A DNA stretch of 28,054 bases from a virus. The notes under the pieces were generated by a model. That model was not told the origin of the DNA. It saw only the letters and a list, made by a program, of their open reading frames with translations, and ran no database searches. A program made the translations under genes and the position numbers. This document shows positions 4,190 to 22,020 of the stretch, piece after piece; position 1 is the first letter of the stretch, and the number at the start of each line of letters is the position of its first letter. The DNA is taken from positions 1-28,054 of IMG/VR virus record IMGVR_UViG_3300047284_000321. One strand, 5' to 3'.

Positions 4190-4562
4190 TCTGCTGTTCT
4201 TGCGGTATGGCTGGGGGCACGCACCAGGCGATGGCACCGGCCTGACCGATTGCTTCCAGCTGGTGTGCGAAGTGCGCCGCCGGCTGGGCTTGCGGGATTA
4301 CGCCCCAGACTTCGACTGGGTTTATGACACCTACACTGAGGCAACGCTGCCTCGGATGCGGTTGATGCGCTGGTTGCTTGAACATTGCAGCCGCGTGACT
4401 ACACCGCAGCCAGGTGATCTATTGCTGTGCCAAGGGCGTGCGGCAGGTGCGTTTGCAGTGGTGAGTGCTGAAGGTGGGATGATCCACCTTCGGGACTCCG
4501 GCACTGTGGCGCATCACCTGCGTGTGCCCAGTGCTCTTCCTTTGTTCCGGCCGCTGCCATGA
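4173..4562 (+). CDS. NlpC/P60-like tail-tip protein (gpK-like), possibly degenerate
   Basis: This 129-residue protein starts at ATG 4173, 17 bases inside the previous gene. A longer in-frame form from ATG 4146 is possible but would overlap more. The segment GTGLTDCFQLVCEVRRRLGL resembles the catalytic Asp-Cys motif of NlpC/P60 peptidases. Later segments, TPQPGDLLLCQG and GGMIHLRDSG, match the PGDL and MIH landmarks. In lambda, gpK lies just before gpJ/gpI and has this domain, thought to cut peptidoglycan during entry. The usual catalytic His strand (HVGI-like) appears here as AGAFAVVSAEGG, with no His, so activity is doubtful. It overlaps the tip protein as ATGA. Confidence 0.6.
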   Translation: MCACNDLLFLRYGWGHAPGDGTGLTDCFQLVCEVRRRLGLRDYAPDFDWVYDTYTEATLPRMRLMRWLLEHCSRVTTPQPGDLLLCQGRAAGAFAVVSAEGGMIHLRDSGTVAHHLRVPSALPLFRPLP

Positions 4563-7500
4563 ACCGCAAGCTTCTGCCGTATGAGCGTGGCCTGTGCGAG
4601 CAGCTGGGCCTGAGCGAGGAAGAGTATCTGCTGTTCTTGGCAGCGCAGAAGGACTACTCGATCTCGGAAGCGAAGCGGCGCGAAGAGCTGCGGGGTGATC
4701 CTGTCTCGATCGTCTTGACGGTTGTCGGGATCCTGTTTCAGGTGGCGTCGGCCTTGCTGGCACCGAAGCCCGAGCAACCGAAGTTCAGGGCACAGCGCCG
4801 GGATCGAACCTACGCACCGCGCTATGGCTTCAACTCAACGCAAGAGCTGGCGCAGTATGGCGACCCGCTGAATCTGGTTTATTGCAACCAGTCGATCAAT
4901 CCGCAGGGTGCGGTGCGGGTGAACTCGGCGCTGCTGTGGTCGTCAGTGGAGAGCACCGGCAGCGGGCAATACATGCAGCTGTTGTTGCTGGTCGGTGCTG
5001 CAGGAGTCAAGAAGCTCGACTTCGGCAAGACGGCATTTGGGCAGTTGCCAGCAAAGCAGTTCGCAGCGGCAAGCACCTGGATGTATTACGCCCAGCAGAA
5101 CGGGCCGGTGTTGGCGCAAGACAAGGTATGGGGTAACGCAAGCGATCCGGCGCTGGAAGACATCGGCGGGGGTGACATCATCCACCGGCTGCGGCATGGC
5201 AACAGCCTGACCGAGGGCTACTCGATGGCGTTCACGCCAACGACCGCCAAAGACCTCGGGGTGTATGCGCCCATCCCGATCAACGTGGATGTGTTTGAGC
5301 GCGATCAGGATGGCGACCTTACCAGCCATCCGATCGGGATTGAATCGCGCACGCCTTGGACAAACGGGCAGTGGTATGACGCGGGCGATCAGTTTCAGCT
5401 GTTTTTCAAGAAGGTTGACCGCGACCAGGAAGAGGTTGCCGATGAGGCAGCCAAGGATCTGCGGCTGCAGCTGCTGAACAACCTGGATCGCGGGGCGATC
5501 TATGAGCTAGGCAGTGCGCACTTCAGGCTGCTGCGCTGGGAGGAAGGCGACAACATCCATGCCGAGAACATCAGCGCACGGTTTGAATGCACTGAAGCTG
5601 GCTTTGCACCGTCGACGCCGTATGACCGCACGCAGCCGCGCAAGCTCGAAGACTATGACCGCGAGCTGTTTGAGCACTACCGCAAGGTGCTTGAAGCGCC
5701 ATCACCGTCGTCGGTAGAAGATCTCGCTACCAACAATGTGATCGCCGGCACGATCAGCGCGATCGGCGGGTCGCTCACAGCTATGTCAGAGCACAAGATC
5801 TGGCTGGGTCTTTCGCAAAAGCAACAAGCTAGCCGCACATACAAGAACAGCCTCATCACCGACGACATTTACATCAAGGGGTTTGGCAAGGAATACGACT
5901 TCAACGGAACGGTGACGCTGACCTGGATCAATGATCTGGACAAGACCTCTACCGCGACCTACCCCGAAGGTGGTTCGATTGCTTACACCGAACTGATCCT
6001 TGAGCAGTTCTTGGCGGATAAGCCCAAGTTGCCCACCAAAGCGTTGCGCAAAGAGTATTCCGACGATCTCAAAAGGCTGCGGAAGTATCGCGACGACCTT
6101 CGAGCTGGCCGCTACAAGCGCCAACTGCGTAACGACATCAAAAACAACGACCCCACGGTGCGGGCGATTTGGGACAAGGTTCGCAACCTCAACAACCTGA
6201 TCGCTGCTGCCAACGGCGAGGAGATGGATGACACCTGGAGAGCAGAGGCACGCCAGCAGCAAACTGCGGTAGACCTGCGCAACCAGATCGCAGCCAAGCG
6301 GGAAGAGATCGAAAGCTACGCCGATAACGAATCAGGCGGCCGCGCGGTCAAGAAGGTGAAGCGACTGGAGAACCAGATCGAAAACCTGCGTGACACCCGC
6401 CGTGATTTCATCAACGACTACATCGCTCAGAAGCGCCGTCAAGCCAAGAAGCCGGCTAGTCAGATCCGGGCATGGCGCGACGAAAAGGATGACCTGCTGG
6501 AGGCGATGAATGCAGAGATTGCCGTGCGTTTGGATGACTGGCGCACCGAGAAGGTGCGTGAGGCGCGCGAAGCGACCTATGCCTTCACGGGGTATGACGG
6601 CAACCGCTACGCCTGCGGGGTGAACTGCCTGATCGACAAGCTTGACGATCTCAAGGGCGAGTTCACAACTGATCAGGTGGGCACCGACCTGATTCGCAAA
6701 GCCCTGCGCGATTTGATTGCCAAGAAGCGTGAGGCGCTGCAGTGGCTGCGCTGGCTGGCAAAGAACTGGGACACCCTCGCCCGCGACGTAGACGACGACT
6801 TCTTTAGCAAGTGCTTAGTGAAGCGCGCCCGCGTTGATTACCAGACCATCACCAAGTGTGATCGTGTGATGTTCAACTTCCGCGCGCGCCTGTTCCGTCG
6901 CATCTCAGGGCGTCAGCTGGAATACGGCACCAACGAAGCGCCGGACGGCTACAAGCTCAGCGACAACGGTATTAAGCGCCGTGTGATGTTCTTCCGCATG
7001 ATGTATCGCGATCTGGGCGCTGACCTGTGGCAGGAGGTGCCAAAGATCTTTGCGATTGAGCGGGCCAGTGACACCGATCACTATGTGTTTCTGCAGTTCA
7101 TCTCGCCGCGCAAGGCAAAGCGTGAGTTTCGCTTTGTGCCCCTAGTGGATGCTCGCCGCACGGTGCGAGAGAAAAGCATCGACGGGTATATCTATATCAA
7201 AAACGGCGGGAGCATTAAGAGCTACAGCCACGACGGCAACACGATCAGTTTTCGCGGGCGGTATGTCGGCTTGGCCGAGAACAAGCTCCCCGACCTGCGG
7301 GAGACCGGGCCGATGTATACCAACGAGTGGGACATGTTCTCCGTCCACTCAGACACGCAGATCCAGTTCAGCTTCGACAACGGCCCCGAGGCATCGCTGG
7401 TGAACGTGACCGAGCAAGTCACTTGCCCACTGGATGAGCAGAAATACAAAGGGATGAGCCTGCTGGCCTTCCACACCTACGCCAGCAACGGGGTGGATGA

Positions 7501-8641
7501 TCTGCGCACCATCTCGACCTACGCCTTGGAAGGTAAAGCGTCGTGGAAGGTCAACGACACCACCGGCCAGCCGTATCAAAGCGGAGAGGGCGCTTGCTTT
7601 GCGCCAGACATCTTTGCTGACACGGTGCTTGATAGCACCAACGGAATCAAGAACTTCGCCAACGCCAACGCGATCGACTGGGAGCAACTGGCAAAAGCAA
7701 AGCGCTTCTGCAAGAACAACGGGCTCGGCTGTCGCCTGTTCATGGATGGCGTGATTGCTGATCGGCGCAGCTGGCGTGAGTTCTGGGCGGAGGTGGCGCC
7801 GTTCAGCCTGCTGGAGTTTGCGCGGCTGAATGGCAGGGAAACCTTGCTGCCTGCGCTGCCTATCACGCCTGACGGTCAGGCGACCACCAGCTTGACGATC
7901 TCGGCGCTGTTCAACGAGAGCAACATCCTGGAGGAGTCCTACAAGGAGGAATACCTCGACTACGGGGACAACACCAAGGATCTGGTGGCCACGGTGATCT
8001 ACCGCGAGGTGGCAGAAGACGACGAGGTGTTCCCTCGCAACACCAGCGTGACGTTGTGCCGCGCGGACACGAACGACGCCGAGGCGGTGTGGCAGACCTT
8101 CGACCTGTCGGATTGGGTGTCGCAGAAGCGGCAGGCAGAGCTGTATGGCCGTTACCTATGCCAGCAGCGGCGTTATGTGGGGCGCACGATCGAGTTCCAG
8201 ACAGTGCCGACTGATAGTCCTGTGCAGCCTGGCGCTTACATCGTTGTGGACATCGGGCTCAAGCGCTGGGATTCAGTGCGCACCGGCGTGGTGCAGGCCG
8301 GCGGAACGTTGGATCTGCCGCTCGACGTGGGGATTCAAGATGGCGTCTACACCGTGATGACCTACGACAGCACCCACGAACCACAGGTGCATCAGGGCGT
8401 TGCAATCGAGAACGGTGTGGCGCTGGGGCTGAACGTGCCTGAGGGTTCGCTGTTCGTGCTGGGCAACAGCAGCGATGCTCGCCGTGTGTTCCGCGTCACG
8501 GAGGTGTCACTCGATGAGGATGCGGTGCTGACCGTGCGTGGCGCTGAGCACCCGTGCCAAGTGAACGGCGCGGTCTACACCAGCCTGGTGGCAGATCTGA
8601 GCGACGGTCTCTTTAGAGAGGTCGGCGTAGACTGCACCTGA
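4559..8641 (+). CDS. Tail tip / host specificity protein (gpJ/TipJ-like)
   Basis: At 1360 residues this is the largest protein in the window and lies where lambda gpJ does. These proteins form the central tail tip and contact the receptor. The N-terminal 50 residues are charged. A hydrophobic stretch (SIVLTVVGILFQVASALLAP, about 49-68) is followed by a conserved-looking region with YAPRYGFNSTQELAQYGDPL, typical of the TipJ N-terminus. Residues about 487-745 (about 6018-6795) form an unusual Lys/Arg/Asp/Glu-rich helical insertion rich in coiled coil, containing YACGVNC. The C-terminal third has beta-rich segments as expected for tip domains. It starts by ATGA overlap, and the next gene follows after 10 bases. 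Confidence 0.88.
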   Translation: MNRKLLPYERGLCEQLGLSEEEYLLFLAAQKDYSISEAKRREELRGDPVSIVLTVVGILFQVASALLAPKPEQPKFRAQRRDRTYAPRYGFNSTQELAQYGDPLNLVYCNQSINPQGAVRVNSALLWSSVESTGSGQYMQLLLLVGAAGVKKLDFGKTAFGQLPAKQFAAASTWMYYAQQNGPVLAQDKVWGNASDPALEDIGGGDIIHRLRHGNSLTEGYSMAFTPTTAKDLGVYAPIPINVDVFERDQDGDLTSHPIGIESRTPWTNGQWYDAGDQFQLFFKKVDRDQEEVADEAAKDLRLQLLNNLDRGAIYELGSAHFRLLRWEEGDNIHAENISARFECTEAGFAPSTPYDRTQPRKLEDYDRELFEHYRKVLEAPSPSSVEDLATNNVIAGTISAIGGSLTAMSEHKIWLGLSQKQQASRTYKNSLITDDIYIKGFGKEYDFNGTVTLTWINDLDKTSTATYPEGGSIAYTELILEQFLADKPKLPTKALRKEYSDDLKRLRKYRDDLRAGRYKRQLRNDIKNNDPTVRAIWDKVRNLNNLIAAANGEEMDDTWRAEARQQQTAVDLRNQIAAKREEIESYADNESGGRAVKKVKRLENQIENLRDTRRDFINDYIAQKRRQAKKPASQIRAWRDEKDDLLEAMNAEIAVRLDDWRTEKVREAREATYAFTGYDGNRYACGVNCLIDKLDDLKGEFTTDQVGTDLIRKALRDLIAKKREALQWLRWLAKNWDTLARDVDDDFFSKCLVKRARVDYQTITKCDRVMFNFRARLFRRISGRQLEYGTNEAPDGYKLSDNGIKRRVMFFRMMYRDLGADLWQEVPKIFAIERASDTDHYVFLQFISPRKAKREFRFVPLVDARRTVREKSIDGYIYIKNGGSIKSYSHDGNTISFRGRYVGLAENKLPDLRETGPMYTNEWDMFSVHSDTQIQFSFDNGPEASLVNVTEQVTCPLDEQKYKGMSLLAFHTYASNGVDDLRTISTYALEGKASWKVNDTTGQPYQSGEGACFAPDIFADTVLDSTNGIKNFANANAIDWEQLAKAKRFCKNNGLGCRLFMDGVIADRRSWREFWAEVAPFSLLEFARLNGRETLLPALPITPDGQATTSLTISALFNESNILEESYKEEYLDYGDNTKDLVATVIYREVAEDDEVFPRNTSVTLCRADTNDAEAVWQTFDLSDWVSQKRQAELYGRYLCQQRRYVGRTIEFQTVPTDSPVQPGAYIVVDIGLKRWDSVRTGVVQAGGTLDLPLDVGIQDGVYTVMTYDSTHEPQVHQGVAIENGVALGLNVPEGSLFVLGNSSDARRVFRVTEVSLDEDAVLTVRGAEHPCQVNGAVYTSLVADLSDGLFREVGVDCT

Positions 8642-9987: not shown

Positions 9988-12219
9988 GTGGCAGACACCA
10001 GGATTTCGGCGCTGACACGTCTGCCGGAAGCCGGTGTCTCACCGACAGACCTGCTGCCGATCGCAGACCTGTCGGCATCAGAGACGAAAGCCATCACAGC
10101 AAAGGACTTGCTGGAAGGCGTCGTCATCAACATGGACGCCGGCTCGATACCGGCCGACAAGATTGATTTCAGCAGCGGCGTTCCAAGCGGAACGATCGAC
10201 ATCACGCAAGGTGATGTGGTGCTGGGGCGCATCACAGGCGCTGGTTTCGCTGAGGAGATTGCTTGCACGGCAGCCGGGCGCGCCTTGCTTGCGGGCATTG
10301 ATGCCGCAGCACAACGCACATCGCTGGGTCTTGGCAGCTTGGCGCTGCGGAGCGGTAGCTGGGTGGACGGCTCCAGCTTTAGCGGCACCAGCAGCGGCAC
10401 CAACACCGGCGACCAGACGATCACGCTGACGGGTCCGGTCACAGGCGCCGGCACTGGCACCTTTGCCACGACGATCACCGCTGGCGCTGTTGGCACCACG
10501 CAGCTGGCGACAGGCGCAGCCACCACGATCAAGGTGGCTGATGACGCGATTACCTCAGCCAAGTTGGCTGATCAATCCAGCACGGTTGTGGTGACGGGTT
10601 CACCAGCTGGTGCTGGTGCGTTCATCGGTCAGGGCGCAATCAACAGCGTCAACAACGTCACCTACACCTACACCGCAAGCGGGTGGGTGGAGAACGCCGG
10701 GGCAAAGAGCATCACCTTCAACGAGGTGAATACACCGCTGTCGTTTGCGGTGAGCGGCAGCAGCGCGTTGACGGTGGACGTGAGGCTTGATCTGCAGGCT
10801 GCAAATCGAGTGTGGGCAGGTCCGAGCAGTGGCGCCAACGCGGTCCCGACCTTCCGCGCTTTGGTGAGCGCTGATCTACCTGCCGCAACAGCAGGAGCAA
10901 TCGGTGCTGTCAAGCCTGGTGACGGGCTGAGCGTGGCAGCCGATGGTCTGCTGACGGTGAACAAGGCAAGCACCACCGCAATCGGCGGAGTGTCGATAGC
11001 ACCGGGCGATGCAGTCACCGTGGATGGCGCAGGGCAGATCGCTCACTCCAATAGCGGTGTCACTCCTGGCACCTACCCGAAGGTGACGGTGGATGCCTTC
11101 GGGCATGTGGTGTCTGGCAGTGCGTTAGATGGCACTGATGTGCCGCCGCACGATGCGTCGTTGCTGGTGAGCGGCAGCATCCCAGCAGGACGGTTTGGCG
11201 ACAAGAGCATCCCTGCCAATGCGTTGGCGGATTACGCGACGGCGTATATCCAGGATGTGCTGCCGCCACTGACAGGCAACACAATCGGGCGGCTGTGGCT
11301 CAACCCACTGGCGCAGCAGATCAGGATGTGGGACGGCAACGTTTGGGTGCCGATCGGTGTTGGCGCGCTGAGTGAGCAGAACCTGCGTTTCAGCGGTCTA
11401 TTCAATGCCAGCGACGGCAAGATCACGATCTTGACGCAGTTTGGGCGTGATGCGGGGTACAAGGTTGGCGATGTGTTGCCGGTTGCCACCGACCAGCTGA
11501 CGGGTTCGTATTTCGTTTGCGACACCGCAGGCAACGGCACGGCGGTGGTGCCTGGCATTGCGTTCGATCCGGGTGACTGGTGCTTGTGCTTGGGCGTCGC
11601 ACAGGGCTGGGCGCGGATCGACACGCTGAGCGGTGGCGGTGGCGGCGGGACCACCACGCTGGACGGGCTGATCGACGTGGATGTGCCTAACCCGAGCGCG
11701 GGTCAGGTGCTGGAGTTCGACGGCACGGTGTGGAAGGCAGTTGCCGTTGCCGACGCCACCACAACAGTTAAAGGCCGGATTGAACTAGCAACGCAGGCGG
11801 AGGTGGATGCCGGCACTGATGCCGTGCGTGCGGTGACACCCGCCACGTTGAAGCAGTACGTGGCGACAGCAAGTCCACCGCCACCGGATGCCACCACAAC
11901 GGTGAAGGGCATCGTTCAGCTGGCGACTGCAGCTGATGTGACTGCAGGCAGTGCAACGAAAGGGGTCACAGCAGATCTGCTGAAGACCACCAACGACACG
12001 CTGACGACTGCAACGAACAACATCACCACGATCCAGGGGCAGATCACCACGCTCCAAGGTCAAACGATTGATGCCAGCGAGACTGCAAAGGGCATCATCG
12101 AGTTGGCAACGATTGCAGAGGTCACAGCTGGCACTGACACGGTGCGAGCCGTGACACCAGCAGGAGCCAAAGCGGTCTACCTGCCCACCGATTTCCGCAC
12201 TCTTGCCGTTCTTCCCTGA
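9988..12219 (+). CDS. Tail fibre protein with C-terminal repeats
   Basis: This 743-residue protein starts at GTG 9988 (MADTRISALTRLPEAG). The N-terminus resembles phage particle-attachment segments (DLLPIADLSASETKAITA). The body is Gly/Ala/Thr-rich with fibre-like short strands such as TLTGPVTGAGTGTFATTITA. A domain at about 405-545 contains LPPLTGNTIGRLWLNPLAQQ. Three repeats of the tail-fibre type begin at about residues 588, 633 and 694, each with KGxxxLAT, then an acidic stretch and, in two of them, AVTPA. It lies five bases before the DGR variable protein, so the two are probably co-expressed and may form one adhesion device. Confidence 0.8.
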   Translation: MADTRISALTRLPEAGVSPTDLLPIADLSASETKAITAKDLLEGVVINMDAGSIPADKIDFSSGVPSGTIDITQGDVVLGRITGAGFAEEIACTAAGRALLAGIDAAAQRTSLGLGSLALRSGSWVDGSSFSGTSSGTNTGDQTITLTGPVTGAGTGTFATTITAGAVGTTQLATGAATTIKVADDAITSAKLADQSSTVVVTGSPAGAGAFIGQGAINSVNNVTYTYTASGWVENAGAKSITFNEVNTPLSFAVSGSSALTVDVRLDLQAANRVWAGPSSGANAVPTFRALVSADLPAATAGAIGAVKPGDGLSVAADGLLTVNKASTTAIGGVSIAPGDAVTVDGAGQIAHSNSGVTPGTYPKVTVDAFGHVVSGSALDGTDVPPHDASLLVSGSIPAGRFGDKSIPANALADYATAYIQDVLPPLTGNTIGRLWLNPLAQQIRMWDGNVWVPIGVGALSEQNLRFSGLFNASDGKITILTQFGRDAGYKVGDVLPVATDQLTGSYFVCDTAGNGTAVVPGIAFDPGDWCLCLGVAQGWARIDTLSGGGGGGTTTLDGLIDVDVPNPSAGQVLEFDGTVWKAVAVADATTTVKGRIELATQAEVDAGTDAVRAVTPATLKQYVATASPPPPDATTTVKGIVQLATAADVTAGSATKGVTADLLKTTNDTLTTATNNITTIQGQITTLQGQTIDASETAKGIIELATIAEVTAGTDTVRAVTPAGAKAVYLPTDFRTLAVLP
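11752..12177 (+). repeat. Three diverged tail-fibre repeats
   Basis: Units begin near 11752, 11887 and 12070. Each starts GAYGCCA and encodes a KGxxxLAT element followed by an A-E/D-V-x-A-G motif; units 1 and 3 also share a T-D-x-VRAVTPA end. Unit spacing is 135 and 183 bases because of a Pro-rich linker and a short coiled coil between units. Such repeats are common in phage tail fibres and give sites for recombination between fibre genes. Confidence 0.75.
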
Positions 12220-12224
12220 CTCCG

Positions 12225-14441
12225 ATGACTCTGCAATCGACTGACTTGTTTGCCGTTCATCGCAGCGGCACCACCTACCAAGCGCAAGCATCGGTGGTGA
12301 AGAGTGGCATCCTCAACAGCCACATCATTCAAAGCCCGACACCGCCCACGATCGCAACTCACCCTGGCATCACCAACGGCACGATCTGGGTTGATACCAG
12401 TCAGTCGCCGCCAACAGTCAATGTGTGGGACCCTGCCGCCAATGGCGGCGCGGGCGGATGGGAGGAGTCCTCTGGAACGCCAAGGCCGATTGCCCCCGCG
12501 CCTGCGGATGTCTCAGCATCGCCTGCGTTCGTCAGTGGCACAGGAACACAGGCAGACCCTTTTGTGCTGACGCCTGTAACGGTTGCCAATGCTGGGGGTA
12601 CGGCACTTAGCTCGCAGAGCTTGACAATCAAAGGGAAAGTTGGCGGCATTGTGTCCTTTGTTGACCTTGCCGCTGGGGCCAATGGCGCCCGTTTCACGCA
12701 GGCTGCTGGCGTTGTAGGCGCGGCAGGAACATGGAGTGGCAATCTTTCCTATCTCGACACGCCCAATAGCACCGTCGATGCCAGCTACACCGCCAACCTG
12801 AAGGTTGGCACTGTCTATTTCCGCTGGGTTATTTCGCAGAAGACCGCTCCGCCCGTACCGTCGCTCGTTCAGGCAACTGCTACGACCGTTGCTGGCAAGG
12901 CAGAAGTTGGGGCTGTGCTGACTGCCGCGCCTGGCACCGCAACTGGCGGTACTGCCCCGATCACCTATGCCACTAAATGGCAGGTCAGTGCTGATGGCAC
13001 CAGCGGCTGGACTGATATTGCAAGCGCGACAGGGACGACCTACACCGTGCTGGCGGGACAGCTGGGCCAGTACGTCCGTGCGCTGACTACCGCTACGGAC
13101 TCCACGGCCACGGCGCAGACCCTTGCCCTGCCTTCAGCTTCTACTGCGAAGATCACCACCTCGCCAGTGGCCACACTTGGTTGGAACGCTGACACAGACG
13201 CCTATACCCGTGATCCTGTTGCTGGACGGATCATTGATGTCCACTCCAGGATGCGGCGATGCTTGGTTACGGATGCGGGTGCTGTCACCTATCTGGATGC
13301 AGACGACAGCACCAAACTTGCTGGCGACTGGTTGCGGCTCTGCGAAACAACAGAGCTGAGCACCCCGTACACAGGCACCCATGGCAGCGAGGTTGCTAAC
13401 ACCACATTGCGAGGCTCGGCTTCTGCCTGGGTGGCGGGAACCTACACCAAGGGCCAGCGCGTAGCGAATGGCGGCAGTGTGTGGGAATGCCTGGCAGCTA
13501 CCACCACGACAACGCCTGGGGCTGGTAGCACTGCTGCCACCTTGAGTGGTGGTGCTGGTCAGGTGATGGTGGAGATCCCGCGCTTTAGCGTGTGGCATGA
13601 AACTGCAACGGCAGGCAGCTACTTGCAGCATCAGCTCCACTTAACTCGCGGTACAAAGCTGGACGGCGGGTATGCGGTACATCCTGCCTTTGTTCGGGCT
13701 AATGGCAGCTACCGCGACTACATCTACATCGGCGCGTATCAAGGTACTGGCACCAACGGCAATGGTTCTGCCAGCGGGGTCAACAACACAACCAGCATGA
13801 CGCGAGGCGCTTGCCGTACAGCATGTGCTGGCAGGGCCGCTAACTGGCATCAGCTTGGGTACTGGGAGTACAACGCTCTGCAGTGGCTGCTATTCACCGA
13901 GTACCAGGACATGAATAGCCAGAAAGTGCTGGGCAATGGCGCCATGGATGGCAACACATATCAGGTGGCGACAGGGATAAGCAACGCAAGGGGGAACCGT
14001 TGCGGACACCTGTACACGTCTGGTGGTTCGGCGAATGACTACGTGTCCTATAGAGGCGTCGAAAACTTCTACGGAAGAGCGTGGCAGTGGGTTGATGGTT
14101 TGAACCTGAATGGGACAGTGCCTTACGTTTGCGGAGATCCGTCGAAGTGGGCTGACGATACCGCGACTGGTTACAGCGCACTTCCTGCAGTTCCTGCCGG
14201 TGGCGGCGAGTACATCAGGGATCTGGCATCCGGCATTGCATTTATGCCGTCTTCCCTGGTGGGGGCGTCAGCGACAACTTTTATTGGTGACGCGTTGTAT
14301 ACAGGTACCGGCTGGCGTGTGGCCAGTGTGGGCGGCGGCGCGGCCAATGGCGCTCCGGTGGGGGCCTTGTGCTCGGCTTTCGGCGATGCCTCGTCCGTTG
14401 CGGCCGCGAGCTCCGGCGGCCGTTGCGCCTACGCGCCATAA
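12225..14441 (+). CDS. DGR variable (target) protein; tail-fibre adhesin with C-type lectin/FGE-like C-terminus
   Basis: This 738-residue protein is the substrate of the retroelement. The N-terminus (about 1-200) is fibre-like, with TPPTIATHPGITNGTIWVDT. An Ig-like beta domain lies at about 207-307, including WQVSADGTSGWTDIA. From about 448 the sequence has formylglycine-enzyme / C-type-lectin character: MVEIPRFSVWHE, NWHQLGYWEYNALQWLLFTE, then GRAWQWVDGLNLNG. The last 44 residues contain the variable repeat, coding residues about 695-735, with only YAP after it. VR residues read GWRVASVGGGAANGAPVGAL and onward, while the template would encode GWHVANVGSNANNGTQVGAL. Placing diversity at the extreme C-terminus on a lectin fold is the classic design (Mtd in Bordetella phage). 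Start is ATG 12225, without a clear Shine-Dalgarno. Confidence 0.92.
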   Translation: MTLQSTDLFAVHRSGTTYQAQASVVKSGILNSHIIQSPTPPTIATHPGITNGTIWVDTSQSPPTVNVWDPAANGGAGGWEESSGTPRPIAPAPADVSASPAFVSGTGTQADPFVLTPVTVANAGGTALSSQSLTIKGKVGGIVSFVDLAAGANGARFTQAAGVVGAAGTWSGNLSYLDTPNSTVDASYTANLKVGTVYFRWVISQKTAPPVPSLVQATATTVAGKAEVGAVLTAAPGTATGGTAPITYATKWQVSADGTSGWTDIASATGTTYTVLAGQLGQYVRALTTATDSTATAQTLALPSASTAKITTSPVATLGWNADTDAYTRDPVAGRIIDVHSRMRRCLVTDAGAVTYLDADDSTKLAGDWLRLCETTELSTPYTGTHGSEVANTTLRGSASAWVAGTYTKGQRVANGGSVWECLAATTTTTPGAGSTAATLSGGAGQVMVEIPRFSVWHETATAGSYLQHQLHLTRGTKLDGGYAVHPAFVRANGSYRDYIYIGAYQGTGTNGNGSASGVNNTTSMTRGACRTACAGRAANWHQLGYWEYNALQWLLFTEYQDMNSQKVLGNGAMDGNTYQVATGISNARGNRCGHLYTSGGSANDYVSYRGVENFYGRAWQWVDGLNLNGTVPYVCGDPSKWADDTATGYSALPAVPAGGGEYIRDLASGIAFMPSSLVGASATTFIGDALYTGTGWRVASVGGGAANGAPVGALCSAFGDASSVAAASSGGRCAYAP
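14308..14430 (+). repeat. DGR variable repeat (VR)
   Basis: The 123 bases starting CCGGCTGG and ending GCCGTTGCGCCT align without gaps to 14511-14633. By hand count there are 28 differences; 27 are at template A, becoming G in 21, C in 4 and T in 2. The other is T to C at 14413. Both ends are identical to the template (first 9 bases, last 12 bases), as expected for the flanking segments where cDNA anneals. The 3' identical GC-rich block (about 14419-14430) is the candidate initiation-of-mutagenic-homing site. Confidence 0.96.
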
Positions 14442-14457
14442 TTGAGAATGCTCTCAA
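14442..14457 (+). other. Hairpin just 3' of VR (target-recognition hairpin candidate)
   Basis: A perfect 6-bp stem TTGAGA/TCTCAA closes a four-base loop ATGC, beginning one base after the variable protein's stop codon and 11 bases after VR. Bordetella-type DGRs need a short hairpin or cruciform with a tetraloop at this place for efficient retrohoming. No T-run follows, so an intrinsic terminator is less likely. Confidence 0.6.
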
Positions 14458-14462
14458 CAAGC

Positions 14463-14483
14463 AAGGAGGTGATCGCCATGTAG
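14463..14483 (+). other. Strong Shine-Dalgarno with start-stop mini-ORF before the template repeat
   Basis: AAGGAGGT (14463-14470) is a near-perfect ribosome site. At the right spacing follows ATG immediately followed by TAG (14478-14483). In another reading, GTG at 14469 gives only four codons before the same TAG. It could load a ribosome and release it just before the template RNA, or be the remnant of a lost accessory gene. No Avd-like ORF is present. Confidence 0.45.
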
Positions 14484-14510
14484 ACGAGCAAGAGGCTTGA
14501 CTCAGTTTCT

Positions 14511-14633
14511 CCGGCTGGCATGTAGCCAATGTGGGCAGCAACGCGAACAATGGCACTCAAGTGGGAGCCTTGTACTCGAATTTCAACAATGCCTCGTCCA
14601 ATGCGAACACGAACATCAGCAGCCGTTGCGCCT
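14511..14633 (+). repeat. DGR template repeat (TR)
   Basis: This is the invariant donor copy, between the variable gene and the reverse transcriptase on the same strand. It holds 32 adenines by hand count, 27 of which are changed in VR. Read in the VR frame it is rich in AAC/AAT codons (Asn) and ends in SSRCA; AAY codons allow wide amino-acid change without stops. The copy is flanked 5' by the start-stop element and 3' by a C6 run. Confidence 0.96.
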
Positions 14634-14752
14634 TTCCCCCCTCGGTTTTCTGACCATACTGAGCAAGCCTGACCGCTAGGTCAAACACACACAATGCACA
14701 AGGGCCCAGTAGGCGAAAGCTCGAACGTCCCGCGACGACAGGGGGGTTAAAA
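14634..14752 (+). ncRNA. TR-RT spacer; 3' part of the DGR template RNA
   Basis: These 119 non-coding bases correspond to the structured spacer that, in Bordetella phage, is part of the RNA needed for cDNA priming. Visible structure includes a hairpin TGACC-GCTA-GGTCA (14670-14683) and a possible long-range pair between C6 at 14636-14641 and G6 at 14741-14746. The G6 run lies 6 bases before the RT start and is its only ribosome-site candidate. A functional RNA is inferred from DGR architecture; the exact ends cannot be seen. Confidence 0.55.
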
Positions 14753-15832
14753 ATGAAACGGTATGGCTACCTCTGGGAGCAGGTTTGCAGCATCGAGAAC
14801 CTGTGGGCGGCCTACCAAAATGCCAGAAGGGGAAAGGCCAGATATAGGCAGATCAGTGAGTTCGATCCAGTGGCTGAGCAGTTCATCCCAAAGCTGCAAC
14901 AGCTGCTATTGACTGGGCAGTTCAAAGCCAGTCCATACAAGGTCTTCAGCCTGGTCGAACGAGGGAAGCTCAGAACAATTCACGCATTGCCTTTCTACCC
15001 AGATCGCATTGTTCATCACGCAATCACGCAGGTCTGCGCTCCGATCTGGGAGCGGTCGCTGATACGCAATACATTCGCTGCGCTGCCAGGGCGTGGCATT
15101 CACGATGGTGTGCGGCGCATGGCGCGGATCACCTTGAAGAGTGAAGGGCTCTTTGTCCTCAAGATGGATGTGAGGCAGTTCTACCCGTCAGTGGACCATG
15201 GCATCCTGAAGCAGATTGTTCGACGCCAGATCAAGGATGCAACGTTGTTGAGTGTCCTTGATGAAATCATTGATTCTGGACCGGGCCTACCCATTGGTAA
15301 CTACCTAAGCCAATATTTTGGCAACCTATTCCTGAGTCCCGTCGACCACCGCGTCACAAGCGGCCTGGGCTTTCGTCACTACTTTCGCTACTGCGACGAT
15401 ATTGTTGTTTTGCACCACCAGAAAAAACGCCTACATACGTTAAAGGCTGAGATCGAGGCCGAGCTGTTGGCTCTGCGTCTTGAGGTGAAGGGAAACTGGC
15501 AGGTCTTTCCGCTTGCAACGAGAGGACTTGATTTCATCGGATACAGGTTCTGGCCATCGCACACCTTGGTCAGAAAGAAAACAGTCTTGAGACTGAAGCA
15601 GCGGCTGCGCATGAAGCGGCCAACATTGAATGAAGCGTTAAGAGTGAACCACGCAGCAAGAAGTTTTGCAGGATGGCTGCGGTATGCGGACACGGTTAGG
15701 CTGAGGCGAGTGGTAATCCAGCCCGCCTTGGGCGAAGTCAATGCTTACGTCAGTCGATTTCGGGCCAATCAAACCATCCATCGCCACCTTTTACGGGGGG
15801 TATCGCGTGCCCGTCGCACTGCAGCAGGTTGA
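14753..15832 (+). CDS. DGR reverse transcriptase
   Basis: This 359-residue RT copies the template RNA with errors at adenine and drives transfer into VR. Motif A reads LKMDVRQFYPSVDH (catalytic Asp139). The DGR-type motif 4 is LPIGNYLSQYFGN (179-191), where group II introns usually have QG in place of SQ. The active site is YCDD (213-216). A C-terminal thumb-like basic segment follows (RKKTVLRLKQRLRMKRP). No maturase or endonuclease domain is present, as is usual for DGR RTs, which are typically 300-450 residues. The ATG follows GGGGGGTTAAAA. It overlaps the next gene. An accessory Avd protein, common in DGRs, was not found near it. Confidence 0.96.
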   Translation: MKRYGYLWEQVCSIENLWAAYQNARRGKARYRQISEFDPVAEQFIPKLQQLLLTGQFKASPYKVFSLVERGKLRTIHALPFYPDRIVHHAITQVCAPIWERSLIRNTFAALPGRGIHDGVRRMARITLKSEGLFVLKMDVRQFYPSVDHGILKQIVRRQIKDATLLSVLDEIIDSGPGLPIGNYLSQYFGNLFLSPVDHRVTSGLGFRHYFRYCDDIVVLHHQKKRLHTLKAEIEAELLALRLEVKGNWQVFPLATRGLDFIGYRFWPSHTLVRKKTVLRLKQRLRMKRPTLNEALRVNHAARSFAGWLRYADTVRLRRVVIQPALGEVNAYVSRFRANQTIHRHLLRGVSRARRTAAG

Positions 15833-16121
15833 CATCCCTGCTGGTGCTGACGGCTCTACGGCAAAGGGGTGGCGTGGCTACCTGCTGGAGCTGGCGGGGC
15901 TGACGGAGGTTGAGTTCGACCGTGTATCAGCAGAGCTGCCGCCTGGCGACTATTCGGCAGACAAGCTGGCTGTATTGACGGAAGCTGTCCATGAACAGCG
16001 GCGTGCAGCGTATCCACCGATTGAGGACTACATCGACGGCGTGGTGAAGGGGGATGACGCCCAAGTTGCTGAATACAAAGCCAAATGCCTTGAGGTAAAG
16101 AAGCAGCACCCGATGCCGTGA
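15741..16121 (+). CDS. Phage tail-associated protein (tail fibre assembly/XkdW-like)
   Basis: The frame gives 126 residues from ATG 15741 or 104 from GTG 15807. The GTG is preceded by a G6 run at 15795-15800 and reduces overlap with the RT from 92 to 26 bases, so I favour it. The C-terminal part, YPPIEDYIDGVVKGDDAQVA and on to KQHP, is a pattern common in small proteins at the end of tail-fibre clusters. The middle, RGYLLELAGLTEVEFDRV, is helical. A role in fibre or tail assembly is inferred from this pattern and from position. It overlaps the next possible gene as GTGA. Confidence 0.6.
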   Translation: MLTSVDFGPIKPSIATFYGGYRVPVALQQVDIPAGADGSTAKGWRGYLLELAGLTEVEFDRVSAELPPGDYSADKLAVLTEAVHEQRRAAYPPIEDYIDGVVKGDDAQVAEYKAKCLEVKKQHPMP

Positions 16122-17574: not shown

Positions 17575-17609
17575 CGCATACTAGGCGTGGACTGGGCTTT
17601 CAGTATGCG
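17575..17609. other. Inverted repeat at recombinase start (attP or operator candidate)
   Basis: CGCATACT (17575-17582) and AGTATGCG (17602-17609) form a perfect 8-bp inverted repeat separated by 19 bases, spanning the recombinase start codon. Large serine recombinases bind imperfect inverted repeats of about 40-50 bases at attP, which usually lies beside their gene. It may be part of attP or an autoregulatory site. Inference only. Confidence 0.35.
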
Positions 17610-18915
17610 TCTCGGCTACGGCCGCTGCAGCACCGACGAGCAAGCTGACGCATTACAAGCTCAGCTCTTAAGGCTGACACAGGCTGGCTGTGACGAGATC
17701 CTCAGCGACCTCGAAAGCGGCACCAACGACGAGCGCCCTGGTCTGCAGCAGGTGATGGCCTTGGTGATGGCCGGCAAGGTCACCGAGCTGCTGGTCACCC
17801 GTGTGGATCGCCTTGGCCGCCACGCTGCCTATGCCGATCAGCTCCTGGCGCTCTGCAGCCTCAAGGGTGTCACCGTCCGTGCGCTCGATGGCGGGGAGAT
17901 TGAAACGGCCACGCCTCAGGGCTTCTTCATGGCGCGCACCATGACGACCCTCGCTGAAATGGAGTCGCGGATGCTGAGCATGAGGCTGAAGAAGCAGTTC
18001 ACCGTCTACCGCCAGCAAGGCCGGCATCTGCGGCGCCGCAAACCGTTTGGCTACATGGGCGGCCCTGAACACAAGCTGGTGCCCAACCCTGACGAGTGGG
18101 ACCAAGCGCTCCGCGTCTTGGATGAACTGCGCCGCTATGGCAGCTTCAGCCGCACGGCCATGCACCTCCCTTCCTGGTGCAGCTGGACGCCAGCAGCAAG
18201 CAGCCTGCAAGCCTGGTTCTGCAACCCCGTGATCCGCGGGCACGTCGGCCATCACCTCGACAAGCATTCCGGCAAGGGCTGGCGTCAAGCCTGGGGCGAG
18301 ATCTACTACGACCAGCACGAAGCGCTGATCAGCGAAGCTGACTGGCAGGCCCTGGCCGACAGCCTGCGCCGCACAAAGAACAACTTCGCCGGCAAACCCA
18401 CGGTCGAGGCGCGGCACGGTCTGACCGGCCTGCTGGTGTGCGACAGCTGCGGCCATCGCATGAGGCGCAACAGCTCGGTCGGCGTGGTGTGGTGGCGCTG
18501 CCGGCATCGGCTCTGCACCGCCCGCGGCGGAATTAAGGAGTCGCTGGTGTTCCCGTTGGTAATTGATGCCTGCGTCAATGCAGCGCAGAAGTTGGCAGCA
18601 GTCGCCGCGGCCCCACCAGATGACGATCCGCGCATCGCCTTGAAGCGACGCGATCTGGAGGCGCTGCAATCCTTGGCAGCAAGAAACCCCGGCCTCCTGC
18701 CTGGCTGTAAAGCGCTGGAGCAGGAGATCGAGGCAATGCAACGGCGACCAGCACCGTCAGTTGATCTGGTCCGTTATCAACAGATGATGAGCGACCCGAA
18801 GTTCTTCACGGGTGCAACCGCAGATCAGCAGCGTGCGATCTATGGGGCGGTGCTGCAGGAACTACGGGTTGGACCAGGCGGTCACCCTGTGATGCCTGTT
18901 CTTCGTAGCTTTTGA
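17605..18915 (+). CDS. Large serine recombinase (phage integrase)
   Basis: This 436-residue protein would integrate and excise the phage. The N-terminal resolvase domain begins MRLGYGRCSTDEQADALQAQ with catalytic Ser9 in the usual R-x-S context. VTRVDRLGRHAAYADQLLAL and MARTMTTLAEMESRMLSMRL match the next conserved blocks. The recombinase domain follows (RRRKPFGYMGG). A zinc-ribbon with Cys at about 279 and 282 (CDSCGHRMRR) and a later CRHRLC pair is present, then a short coiled coil. I choose ATG 17605; GTG 17587 would add six residues before the domain. It is shorter than many large serine integrases (450-600) and resembles cyanobacterial XisF-type excisionases (inference). Confidence 0.92.
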   Translation: MRLGYGRCSTDEQADALQAQLLRLTQAGCDEILSDLESGTNDERPGLQQVMALVMAGKVTELLVTRVDRLGRHAAYADQLLALCSLKGVTVRALDGGEIETATPQGFFMARTMTTLAEMESRMLSMRLKKQFTVYRQQGRHLRRRKPFGYMGGPEHKLVPNPDEWDQALRVLDELRRYGSFSRTAMHLPSWCSWTPAASSLQAWFCNPVIRGHVGHHLDKHSGKGWRQAWGEIYYDQHEALISEADWQALADSLRRTKNNFAGKPTVEARHGLTGLLVCDSCGHRMRRNSSVGVVWWRCRHRLCTARGGIKESLVFPLVIDACVNAAQKLAAVAAAPPDDDPRIALKRRDLEALQSLAARNPGLLPGCKALEQEIEAMQRRPAPSVDLVRYQQMMSDPKFFTGATADQQRAIYGAVLQELRVGPGGHPVMPVLRSF

Positions 18916-18967
18916 TCCTGGCGAGCAGCGCCTCGCGCAACGTGAGCAGCTTCGGGTCGTCGCTCAT
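18806..18967 (-). CDS. Small ORF coupled to sigma factor gene
   Basis: ATG at 18967 overlaps the sigma-factor stop as ATGA and opens a 53-residue frame to TGA at 18806. The first 28 residues (MSDDPKLLTLREALLARIKS and onward) are helical and look like protein; the last 20 are Pro/His-rich and overlap the antisense 3' end of the recombinase by 110 bases. It may be the last gene of the early operon, possibly cut short where the recombinase module joined. No family recognised. Confidence 0.4.
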   Translation of the reverse strand: MSDDPKLLTLREALLARIKSYEEQASQGDRLVQPVVPAAPPHRSHAADLRLHP

Positions 18968-19869
18968 GCCGCCACCCCTTGCATGGCGGCCTTGCGCAGC
19001 TTTCTCATCACGCGCTTCTCAAGCTGCTGCACGTTTTGACGTGTGCAGCCCATGCGCTTAGCCACTGCAATCTGCGAGAGACCCTCGCCTTTGCAGTCGA
19101 TGCCATGGCGCAGGTTGATCAGCGTGCGCTCCTTCTCGTTCAGCCTGTCAAGCCAGATGTCCAGCTTGCAGAGCAGCGAGTCCTTCTCCAGCTCCTCCAT
19201 CGGAGTGGTGTCGGTGCTCTCGATCAGGTCAACCAGAGAGCAAGTGTTTTTCTCGCCCTTGGTGTTGTGTGCCTTGGCGTCAAGGCTGCCGCACCCTGAG
19301 GCATGGGTGAGGTAGCCCTGCATCACATTGATGGTGACGCCGCAGTAGTCAGCGCACTCCTGTGGAGTCGGCGGCCGGTGGTGATCGCGGATGAACGATG
19401 GCGCCCAGTTGCGGATCTTGTTCAGGCAGTCGATCGCATTGATCGGCAGCCGAACGGTGCGGTCCTGTTGAGAGATCGCCCTTGTGATGCCCTGGCGAAT
19501 CCACCAGTAAAGATACGTGCTGGCCTTGTACCCTCTTTCAGGGTCAAACTTTTCAACCCCTCGAACTAAGCCAAACATGCCTTCTTGCACGAGATCAGAT
19601 AGATCAAGCGTGCGAACATGAAAGACATAGCGCTTAGCAATGCTCACCACCAGGCGAAGGTTGGCGGTGATCATGCGCTCCTTGGCTCGTTCGCCGGCGC
19701 GTAACACCCGGTTCTCCTCTTTGGTGTAGGGGCCTGCCGGGTTTGCCTCCCGCAAGACAACCATGGCCTGCACCCTGCGCGAGAGAAGAATCTCCTCTTC
19801 GTGCGTCAGCAGTGGGATCTTCCCGGCTCGGTTGAGGAACCACGAAATGGCGTCAGTGTTTTCGCTCAC
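18964..19869 (-). CDS. Phage-encoded sigma-70 family factor (cyanobacterial group 2-like)
   Basis: This 301-residue protein has region 1.2 (ISWFLNRAGKIPLLTHEEEI, about 8-27) and the full region 2: ANLRLVVSIAKRYVFHVRTL, DLVQEGMFGLVRGVEKFDPE, and the melting/-10 segment YKASTYLYWWIRQGITRAIS, then RTVRLPIN. Region 3 follows, and region 4 reads LNEKERTLINLRHG and LSQIAVAKRMGCTRQNVQQL as the -35 HTH. This is the architecture of host primary/group 2 sigma factors of cyanobacteria, not of divergent phage sigmas such as T4 gp55. It could redirect host polymerase to phage promoters. It starts by ATGA overlap with the HNH gene and lies in the leftward early operon. Confidence 0.93.
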   Translation of the reverse strand: MSENTDAISWFLNRAGKIPLLTHEEEILLSRRVQAMVVLREANPAGPYTKEENRVLRAGERAKERMITANLRLVVSIAKRYVFHVRTLDLSDLVQEGMFGLVRGVEKFDPERGYKASTYLYWWIRQGITRAISQQDRTVRLPINAIDCLNKIRNWAPSFIRDHHRPPTPQECADYCGVTINVMQGYLTHASGCGSLDAKAHNTKGEKNTCSLVDLIESTDTTPMEELEKDSLLCKLDIWLDRLNEKERTLINLRHGIDCKGEGLSQIAVAKRMGCTRQNVQQLEKRVMRKLRKAAMQGVAA

Positions 19870-20423
19870 GCCGGCACCTCCAGCCAGGCCCAGTTGCGAC
19901 CAGTCGCAATGTGGCTGATGTTTTCAGCGCGCACGCCGAATTCACGGCCGAGAGACGCACGGCTTTCACCAGCAAGCAGCCGGCGCTTGATCTCAACCAC
20001 TTGCTCCTCTGTGAGCCTGGCTGAGCCATTCCTGGTGCCCCTGGGCAAGGTGCCGTCGCGCAAGCGATCGGCACCGTTGTTGTCCGATGGCGTGCCGTAG
20101 GACAAGTTGCAAAGACGGTTGTCCAGGGGGCCACCAGGACCGTGGCGGACGATGTGCCCCTCAGGGCAAGGGCCAAGAAATGCCTCGGCCACCAAGCGGT
20201 GAACGAGCACCTGCTTGCCCGCTACGTTTGCGGAGGCATAGCGGCCGATGCCAGGCCGAAGCACGCGACCCTTCAGGCGCTTGCAATGCGCTGGGCGCTG
20301 CTTGATCTCAGAGTCGTTGGCGATGACGCCAACTTCACGGTCAAGGCTGCGCACACGGCCAAGGTCGCTGACTTCGTAGTTAGGCGCCCAGCTGATGGGA
20401 CGCCACGTTTCGGTGACGTGCAT
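19866..20423 (-). CDS. HNH homing endonuclease with NUMOD4 and HTH tail (copy 2)
   Basis: This 185-residue paralogue of the 16520-16948 gene has NUMOD4 (WRPISWAPNYEVSDLGRVRS), a HNH block (VHRLVAEAFLGPCPEGHIVR, then a His-Gly-Pro-Gly-Gly segment and PLDNRLCNLSYG), and an added C-terminal helix-turn-helix (LTEEQVVEIKRRLLAGESRA, LGREFGVRAENISHI) that would aid DNA targeting. The second HNH position reads HGPGG in place of the HLNGD seen in copy 1, so metal binding may be altered. It overlaps its upstream neighbour as TGATG and the sigma gene as ATGA, again seamless in the operon. Confidence 0.86.
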   Translation of the reverse strand: MHVTETWRPISWAPNYEVSDLGRVRSLDREVGVIANDSEIKQRPAHCKRLKGRVLRPGIGRYASANVAGKQVLVHRLVAEAFLGPCPEGHIVRHGPGGPLDNRLCNLSYGTPSDNNGADRLRDGTLPRGTRNGSARLTEEQVVEIKRRLLAGESRASLGREFGVRAENISHIATGRNWAWLEVPA

Positions 20424-20918: not shown

Positions 20919-21213
20919 GAACTGATGAAATTGAGTTTCGTCCACGGGTGCGGCTTGGCATGGGGACATCGACGGCCTCAACCTCAAGGTCTGGGAAGAG
21001 GTGAAGCAATGCCCTGGCACGCTCGGCGGCACCTTCTGGCGTGACGAACTGCAGGGCAATGGCCGAGTTGTCAGTGAACGGATCACTGTCGTCAGCGACG
21101 ATCGAGTGATCAGCTAGCCAGCCGCTGTCCGTTTTCAGTAGGAAGCGGACGCACTGGCTGTAGAGACTGGAGCAGCGATATCGCTGCCTTGATGAGGGCT
21201 TCGTTCTGTCCAT
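20911..21213 (-). CDS. Unknown small early protein, start uncertain
   Basis: The believable part reads LLKTDSGWLADHSIVADDSD, then NSAIALQFVTPEGAAERARA and a closing helix with LFPDLEVEAVDVPM, about 75 residues. The only in-frame standard start is ATG 21213, which would overlap the upstream gene by 104 bases and add a basic, low-quality N-terminus. A CTG at about 21136 may be the true start. Function unknown. Confidence 0.45.
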   Translation of the reverse strand: MDRTKPSSRQRYRCSSLYSQCVRFLLKTDSGWLADHSIVADDSDPFTDNSAIALQFVTPEGAAERARALLHLFPDLEVEAVDVPMPSRTRGRNSISSVHG

Positions 21214-21325
21214 GTTCAACAGCTGAATAGAAGCGTGACTGGAAGTAGCTCTGCGTCCATTGATCGCGAACTTCATCTTGAAGATCCAGAAGAGCGGCGA
21301 GAGCCAGTTCAAAGCGTGGGGTCAC
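21110..21325 (-). CDS. Unknown small helical early protein
   Basis: This 71-residue protein starts at GTG 21325, overlapping the Erf stop as GTGA. It is almost wholly helical: FELALAALLDLQDEVRDQWT, then EALIKAAISLLQSLQP. No known motif. The tight coupling to the annealing protein suggests co-expression and perhaps an accessory role. Confidence 0.55.
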   Translation of the reverse strand: MTPRFELALAALLDLQDEVRDQWTQSYFQSRFYSAVEHGQNEALIKAAISLLQSLQPVRPLPTENGQRLAS

Positions 21326-22020
21326 GGTTGCGTGAGAGTGGCGAGGATCTGCTGAGCGACGGCCCCGTGTTCGACTTCTTGCAGGTGCTTCGTGATGGCT
21401 TCCTTCTCGTCAAGCTTGAAGTGCTTGCGGTATTGAGAGCAGAAGCTGTCGAAGGATTGAGCGTCAGAAGTCTTGAGGTGTTTGAGCACCTCGATGATTT
21501 CGTCGCGCTCAGCTGCAGGAAGCGGCTTGGGTGCGTCGGGAGCAGGTGACTTCTCTGCTTTAGGCGCGGTTGGCTTGGCCTGCGCAGGCGTAGGGGAAGA
21601 TTTCACAGTTTTGGCCGCGGCCGGTGCTGTTTTCTGCGGAGGTGCAGCAGATTCGCCGTCGTCGTCTTCAATGCCAGCGGCCAGGCCGAGGATTGAAAGC
21701 AGGCTGTAGCGCCGCAAGTAGGTGGTGGCACCACCGAAATCGTGAAGCGGATTGCGGCCGGAGCCGATGATCATCGGCAGATCGCTGTCGATGGTTTCGC
21801 CGCTGGTGTGCCGCAGCGTGGTGCGCAGCACTGGGGTGCCTTCGGTTGGGATGAAGGTCTGAGTGATGGCCAGGCCGTTCTTGCTGAGAGCAGGAAGGAC
21901 AGCGGAAAGCACAGTGGCGAGGTCGGCGTAGTGGCCGAAGTTGCCGCGGGCTTCTTTGTGAATGGTGGCCACGTCTTTGTGAAAGCCACAAAGCGCGGAG
22001 GTGAGGTTGGCTTCTGTCAT
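21322..22020 (-). CDS. erf: ERF-family single-strand annealing protein
   Basis: This 232-residue recombination protein would anneal single strands during phage recombination or circularisation. The ERF signature is clear at about residues 22-118: KEARGNFGHYADLATVLSAV, LPALSKNGLAITQTF, LRHTSGETIDSDLPM and TTYLRRYSLLSILGLAAGIE followed by an acidic DDDG. A Pro/Ala/Lys-rich linker (about 122-170) joins a C-terminal helical domain (AERDEIIEVLKHLKTSDAQS). It starts by ATGA overlap with the preceding small gene and is the second gene of the leftward operon. A RecB-like nuclease that could supply ssDNA is encoded separately at 26922-27584. Confidence 0.92.
   Translation of the reverse strand: MTEANLTSALCGFHKDVATIHKEARGNFGHYADLATVLSAVLPALSKNGLAITQTFIPTEGTPVLRTTLRHTSGETIDSDLPMIIGSGRNPLHDFGGATTYLRRYSLLSILGLAAGIEDDDGESAAPPQKTAPAAAKTVKSSPTPAQAKPTAPKAEKSPAPDAPKPLPAAERDEIIEVLKHLKTSDAQSFDSFCSQYRKHFKLDEKEAITKHLQEVEHGAVAQQILATLTQP

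Follow-up and report, generated by a model that had tools for sequence, protein, structure and literature searches.

A diversity-generating retroelement of the Avd-less lineage in a likely Synechococcus-type siphophage

Diversity-generating retroelements (DGRs) acting on phage tail proteins are an already known kind of system. In the element of Bordetella phage BPP-1 (mtd/avd/brt), the spacer recruits the reverse transcriptase (RT) together with Avd and primes the cDNA (PMC12875486). A DGR lineage of the order 'target gene-TR-RT' that does without avd has also been described, with crAss LMMB placed in lineage 3 (PMC7290462). TaqVP from a Thermus aquaticus prophage is a DGR variable protein of the FGE-type C-type-lectin fold (PDB 5VF4, PMC6328139). 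As for the cyanobacteria, Synechococcus and Prochlorococcus genomes were reported to lack DGRs, and no cyanobacterial DGR was assignable to a prophage (PMC7517822). A literature search, judged on titles and abstracts and with subscription papers outside its scope, returned no description of a DGR in any cyanophage.

Here we describe a 28,054-base viral contig, a fragment whose whole length is called the window below. The window almost certainly carries a DGR of the Avd-less 'target-TR-RT' phage lineage, presumably working along the lines of the mechanism proposed in the last section. Of moderate interest here are the host context, a broken relative in a cultured phage, and the spacer RNA.

Anatomy of the retroelement and its target gene

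The following features make up the cassette and its immediate surroundings.

12225–14441, + strand: target gene (variable protein), a 738-aa tail protein with a likely C-terminal FGE-type C-type-lectin domain (phrog_5302 and TaqVP matches)
14308–14430, + strand: variable repeat (VR)
14442–14457, + strand: short inverted repeat TTGAGA-ATGC-TCTCAA after the VR, a candidate target hairpin of the BPP-1 type
14511–14633, + strand: template repeat (TR)
14634–14752, + strand: TR-RT spacer, a conserved structured RNA domain
14753–15832, + strand: DGR-type RT, 359 aa (PF00078, E=2e-11; phrog_1423, E=3e-109)
15741–16121, + strand: small ORF overlapping the end of the RT gene

A repeat scan identified the VR and the TR, which was also aligned with those of relatives, as the dominant direct-repeat pair of the region, at a spacing of 203. 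The two copies give a gap-free alignment of 123 bases that contains 28 mismatches, 27 of which fall on adenines of the downstream copy (hypergeometric P=4.8e-21); these are exactly the counts given in the first-pass annotation. The adenine bias lies on the downstream copy, which is therefore the template, and 27 of its 32 adenines are altered in the VR. The changes from TR to VR comprise 21 A>G, 4 A>C, 2 A>T and a single T>C. No mismatched position has an adenine on the VR side (0/28), and codon positions 1 or 2 take 25 of the 28 changes. When both strands of the whole window were scanned, no second variable repeat and no other A-biased repeat pair came up.

The excess of A>G (21/27) was considered as a peculiarity of the window phage and rejected. 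Pooling of 38 TR/VR pairs of the clade gave 467 G, 234 T and 165 C at template adenines, with selection as a confounder of this spectrum. The share of G climbs with the GC content of the genome and depends on the next base: 92% of the template adenines before G are changed, 89% of these to G, whereas the outcomes before T are about equal. G is thus favoured across the 38 pairs, and the excess is not special to the window phage. These 38 pairs do not show the increase in A>C changes at adenines followed by C that was reported for BPP-1 (the NAC effect).

The target ORF encodes a tail protein of phrog_5302 (E=2e-64), and the VR stops 11 bases short of its end. No Pfam family fits the protein well. 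A profile of the C-terminal half built with 14 relatives matched TaqVP (5VF4, E=7.7e-8); the third matching stretch, a weak one, covers the VR. Foldseek on an AlphaFold model of the end of the protein also returned 5vf4 as the top hit (E=1.7e-7), which is supportive only, as the mean pLDDT of the model is 54. The C-terminus of the target is therefore likely to adopt the FGE-type C-type-lectin fold. TaqVP is its closest solved structure, although the sequence similarity is weak and the DGR of TaqVP has avd.

The inverted repeat after the VR forms a 6-bp, AT-rich stem with an ATGC loop instead of GRNA (shuffle p ~0.04). It is kept in the related phage contig L002 and not in L004–L006. As a target-site hairpin it is borderline in the window and L002. 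Phage DGRs are described as having a GC-rich hairpin of 7–10 bp with a GRNA loop 4–34 bp after the VR, and that this stem departs from that form counts against the main reading.

Divergence among relatives and a decayed cousin

The same cassette, with A-specific differences beside the same RT, is present in L002, L004–L009 and most of about 45 relatives. L002 has the same layout and an RT 86% identical to that of the window. The TRs of the two differ at 13 of 123 positions and the VRs at 31. The first-pass annotation had suggested a comparison of VRs among related phages, and here it proved informative: the two VRs disagree at 18 of the 31 sites with A in both TRs and at only 1 of the 79 with the same other base in both (P=1.7e-11). 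The VR of a further relative, L076, differs at 19 of 31 TR-A sites versus 7 of 79 others, and the contrast holds against both the window and L002. The VRs of L002 and L003/L068 are identical, but the contigs are 100% identical over all 7,646 bases, so this identity is uninformative either way.

As the VR divergence between the window and L002 is almost confined to template-A sites, the DGR has been active since the two lineages split, and the sequence comparison supports mutagenic homing after they parted. This variation was measured between related phages, with a single sequence representing the window phage, in which the DGR is presumably active at present. Separately, at L076 7239–7386 the VR-bearing target gene leads within ~50 bases not into a TR but into the apparent start of a further gene (HNH-like by eye), where the contig ends.

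The Synechococcus phage S-EIVl (KJ410740) contains a VR at 21083–21205 and a TR at 21275–21397 that differ at 29 positions, 27 of them at TR adenines (P=2e-18). Its RT starts at 21519, aligns over 27 residues (48%) and is then interrupted by a stop codon. A fragment weakly similar to RT residues 309–337 follows in another frame, before the small ORF. The remaining RT start and the out-of-frame end piece indicate that the middle of the RT was lost by an internal deletion with a frameshift. The target C-terminus is 46% identical to that of the window, and the VR/TR/spacer layout and the downstream small ORF are shared, whereas the window RT is intact. Outside the cassette, the window genes tested have counterparts in S-EIVl only for the endolysin (51%) and part of the HNH gene. 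The decayed DGR with VR, TR and spacer (KJ410740.1 21083–21600; L085, same coordinates) is unannotated in the record.

S-EIVl is also an argument for regarding the window DGR as a relic that was once active and now lies idle with a frozen VR, as it seems to in S-EIVl, where the A-specific VR and TR are retained yet the RT is broken. Incomplete DGR cassettes are likewise known from crAss-like phages (PMC7290462). We consider such a relic improbable: in the window the RT, TR and spacer are all whole, L002 retains them, and the VRs of the two have diverged nearly exclusively at A sites. A plain duplication of the end of the tail gene, with selection for receptor change and no retrohoming behind its divergence, would account for a direct repeat adjoining the gene beside an RT that could be an unrelated neighbour, but it is scarcely credible when 27 of 28 differences lie at the adenines of one copy only (P=5e-21), dozens of relatives show the pattern next to the same RT, and this RT is of the DGR type.

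RT lineage and the TR-RT spacer

The RT ORF is open throughout and carries the YCDD and LPIGNYLSQ motifs noted at first reading. Both YxDD and the (I/L/V)GxxxSQ motif defined for DGR-type RTs (PMC3521204) are thus present. The best solved relative is the BPP-1 DGR RT (8ub7, E=2e-47), followed by a group II RT (4e-19). In a tree of 71 rows, the window RT groups with L002, L004, L005 and L006 (support 100/100). This cluster is nested in a 49-row group (100/99) of phage and bacterial TR/VR-bearing loci that includes crAss LMMB and excludes BPP-1, VP58.5 and the DGRs of filamentous cyanobacteria. A position outside the DGR RTs, which the first-pass annotation had named as evidence against its reading, is not what the tree returned. 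The placement in lineage 3 rests on the grouping with crAss LMMB in this tree and makes no use of the original reference set for the lineages. That an RT of some other bacterial type (group II intron, retron or DRT/UG) lies here by chance has a negligible probability: generic RT models do match, all under the curated cut-off where one exists, but the BPP-1 DGR RT is far closer than the group II RT, IGNYLSQ replaces QGxxxSP, and TR and VR are present.

No bAvd match above the cut-off was found in the window or any viral relative with a model that detects the Avd of BPP-1 and VP58.5, and the intervals between VR, TR and RT are too short for avd to fit. The small ORF after the RT was examined as a candidate Avd and rejected, as it matches neither bAvd nor Pfam. 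It has counterparts in L002 (80%) and S-EIVl (33%), stays downstream of the target gene even where the RT is broken (S-EIVl), and perhaps encodes a tail-fibre assembly protein.

The window DGR is a member of the Avd-less 'target-TR-RT' lineage and not of the BPP-1 branch. It shares with lineage 3 (crAss LMMB) the target gene-VR-TR-RT order, the absence of avd, a C-type-lectin target, the 49-member RT clade and the same spacer RNA, the last as a partial match (E=2.5e-6); crAss LMMB belongs to another phage group with another host, and its RT is ~39% identical to the window RT. The A-specific TR-to-VR changes, the RT family, the VR at the 3' end of a receptor-binding tail gene and the likely FGE-type lectin fold are shared with BPP-1, whereas BPP-1 has avd between its VR and TR, an RT 34% identical and outside the clade, and a spacer with no proper match to the RNA model (E=0.74, misplaced). 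With no avd gene and an RT in another clade, the window DGR is not closely BPP-1-like, and the comparison is valid for the principle and not for the branch.

The 119-base spacer is near-identical in L002 and alignable to distant relatives. Its elements are a TGACC/GGTCA stem at 14670–14683 and a closing helix of 14636–14642 with 14740–14746, which also covers the purine-rich stretch just 5' of the RT start. A covariance model of 16 spacers locates the element directly before the RT in most loci outside the building set, with matches including phage LBR48 and, partly, crAss LMMB. Pairing is kept in 92.9% of cells of the unfitted alignment, with a covariation of 0.483 versus at most 0.073 when slid, and in 96.8% of cells of the fitted one (covariation 0.524). 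Independently of this, the TR 3' end pairs with the final spacer bases ahead of the RT start through sequences that vary by phage: CCCCCCT/AGGGGGG in the window, GCCCTCAG/CTGAGGGC in L005 and CCTTTGTGC/GCACAAAGG in L022. The closing-helix pairs of each locus outdo swapped ones (0/100,000 permutations, with non-independence among related rows). The Avd-less lineage shares this spacer as a covarying RNA domain, for which Rfam has no match. The domain was found upstream of the RT in ~40 loci.

Phage context and proposed mechanism

Beyond the cassette, these genes bear on the phage and its lifestyle.

9988–12219, + strand: second tail-fibre gene, upstream of the target (phrog_910 tail collar fibre)
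17587–18915, + strand: serine integrase (PF00239, PF13408, PF07508)
18964–19869, − strand: sigma factor of the cyanobacterial RpoD/SigA family (TIGR02997, E=1e-80, under its cut-off)
19866–20423, − strand: NUMOD4/HNH endonuclease gene beside the sigma factor

The first-pass annotation had described a serine integrase and a sigma factor in a likely picocyanobacterial phage; both genes are in place, and the evidence supports a phage of the Synechococcus type. A search of 50,697 phage records with the large tail gene at 4559–8641 matched solely S-CBS3, S-CBS1, S-LBS1 and Microcystis phage Mic1. The best-fitting family for the sigma factor is the cyanobacterial RpoD/SigA one, with S-CBS3 as the top phage hit and S-CBS1 also among the best, and the gene order of the window is concordant with S-LBS1 and S-CBS3. 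These matches and the shared order make the window likely to derive from a Synechococcus-type siphophage, at low identity. S-LBS1, S-CBS1 and S-CBS3 have related tail genes and a cyanobacterial-type sigma factor in the same order, but their identities to the window are only 22–37%, and S-LBS1 and S-CBS3 are without an RT. In S-CBS3, GU936715.1 7835–8995 (L073 4790–5950) is annotated as a major tropism determinant (mtd), yet the record has no RT match. The serine integrase and a Bro-N anti-repressor gene suggest a temperate lifestyle; S-LBS1 was the first Synechococcus siphovirus reported with an integrase (PMC6157547). No head genes (capsid, terminase) were recognised in the 28,054-base fragment. 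A search of 386 sampled cyanobacterial genomes for a prophage of the window type gave no close RT (best 39%) and one weak target match only, and plasmid records gave no match.

The earlier reading of a complete DGR on a tail protein is well supported by the RT/TR/VR anatomy, the relatives, the VR divergence between phages and the TaqVP match. In the mechanism we propose, a transcript running through TR and spacer would fold so that the spacer domain closes back on the TR 3' end. The RT would bind the folded transcript as an RT-only complex, copy the TR and misincorporate opposite adenines, with the cDNA presumably primed from the spacer. The mutated cDNA would then home to the 3' end of the tail-protein gene and take the place of the VR. 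Surface residues of the C-type-lectin domain would change, and with them, probably, receptor binding on a Synechococcus-like host.

By analogy, the window spacer may play the role of the BPP-1 spacer without Avd. We offer as a tentative, on balance doubtful, generalisation that in Avd-less phage DGRs the domain closes on the TR 3' end and the RT primes and copies the TR without an accessory protein. In that reading the closing helix covers the ribosome-binding region of the RT, so RNA use and RT translation would exclude each other. That Avd is essential in BPP-1 (PMC12875486) counts against an Avd-free mechanism. The conserved spacer RNA offers a testable handle on DGR function without Avd.

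The window places a DGR in a likely Synechococcus-type phage, with a decayed relative in the cultured S-EIVl. If the tail varies in this programmed way, that would matter for the means by which such phages track receptor changes in picocyanobacteria.
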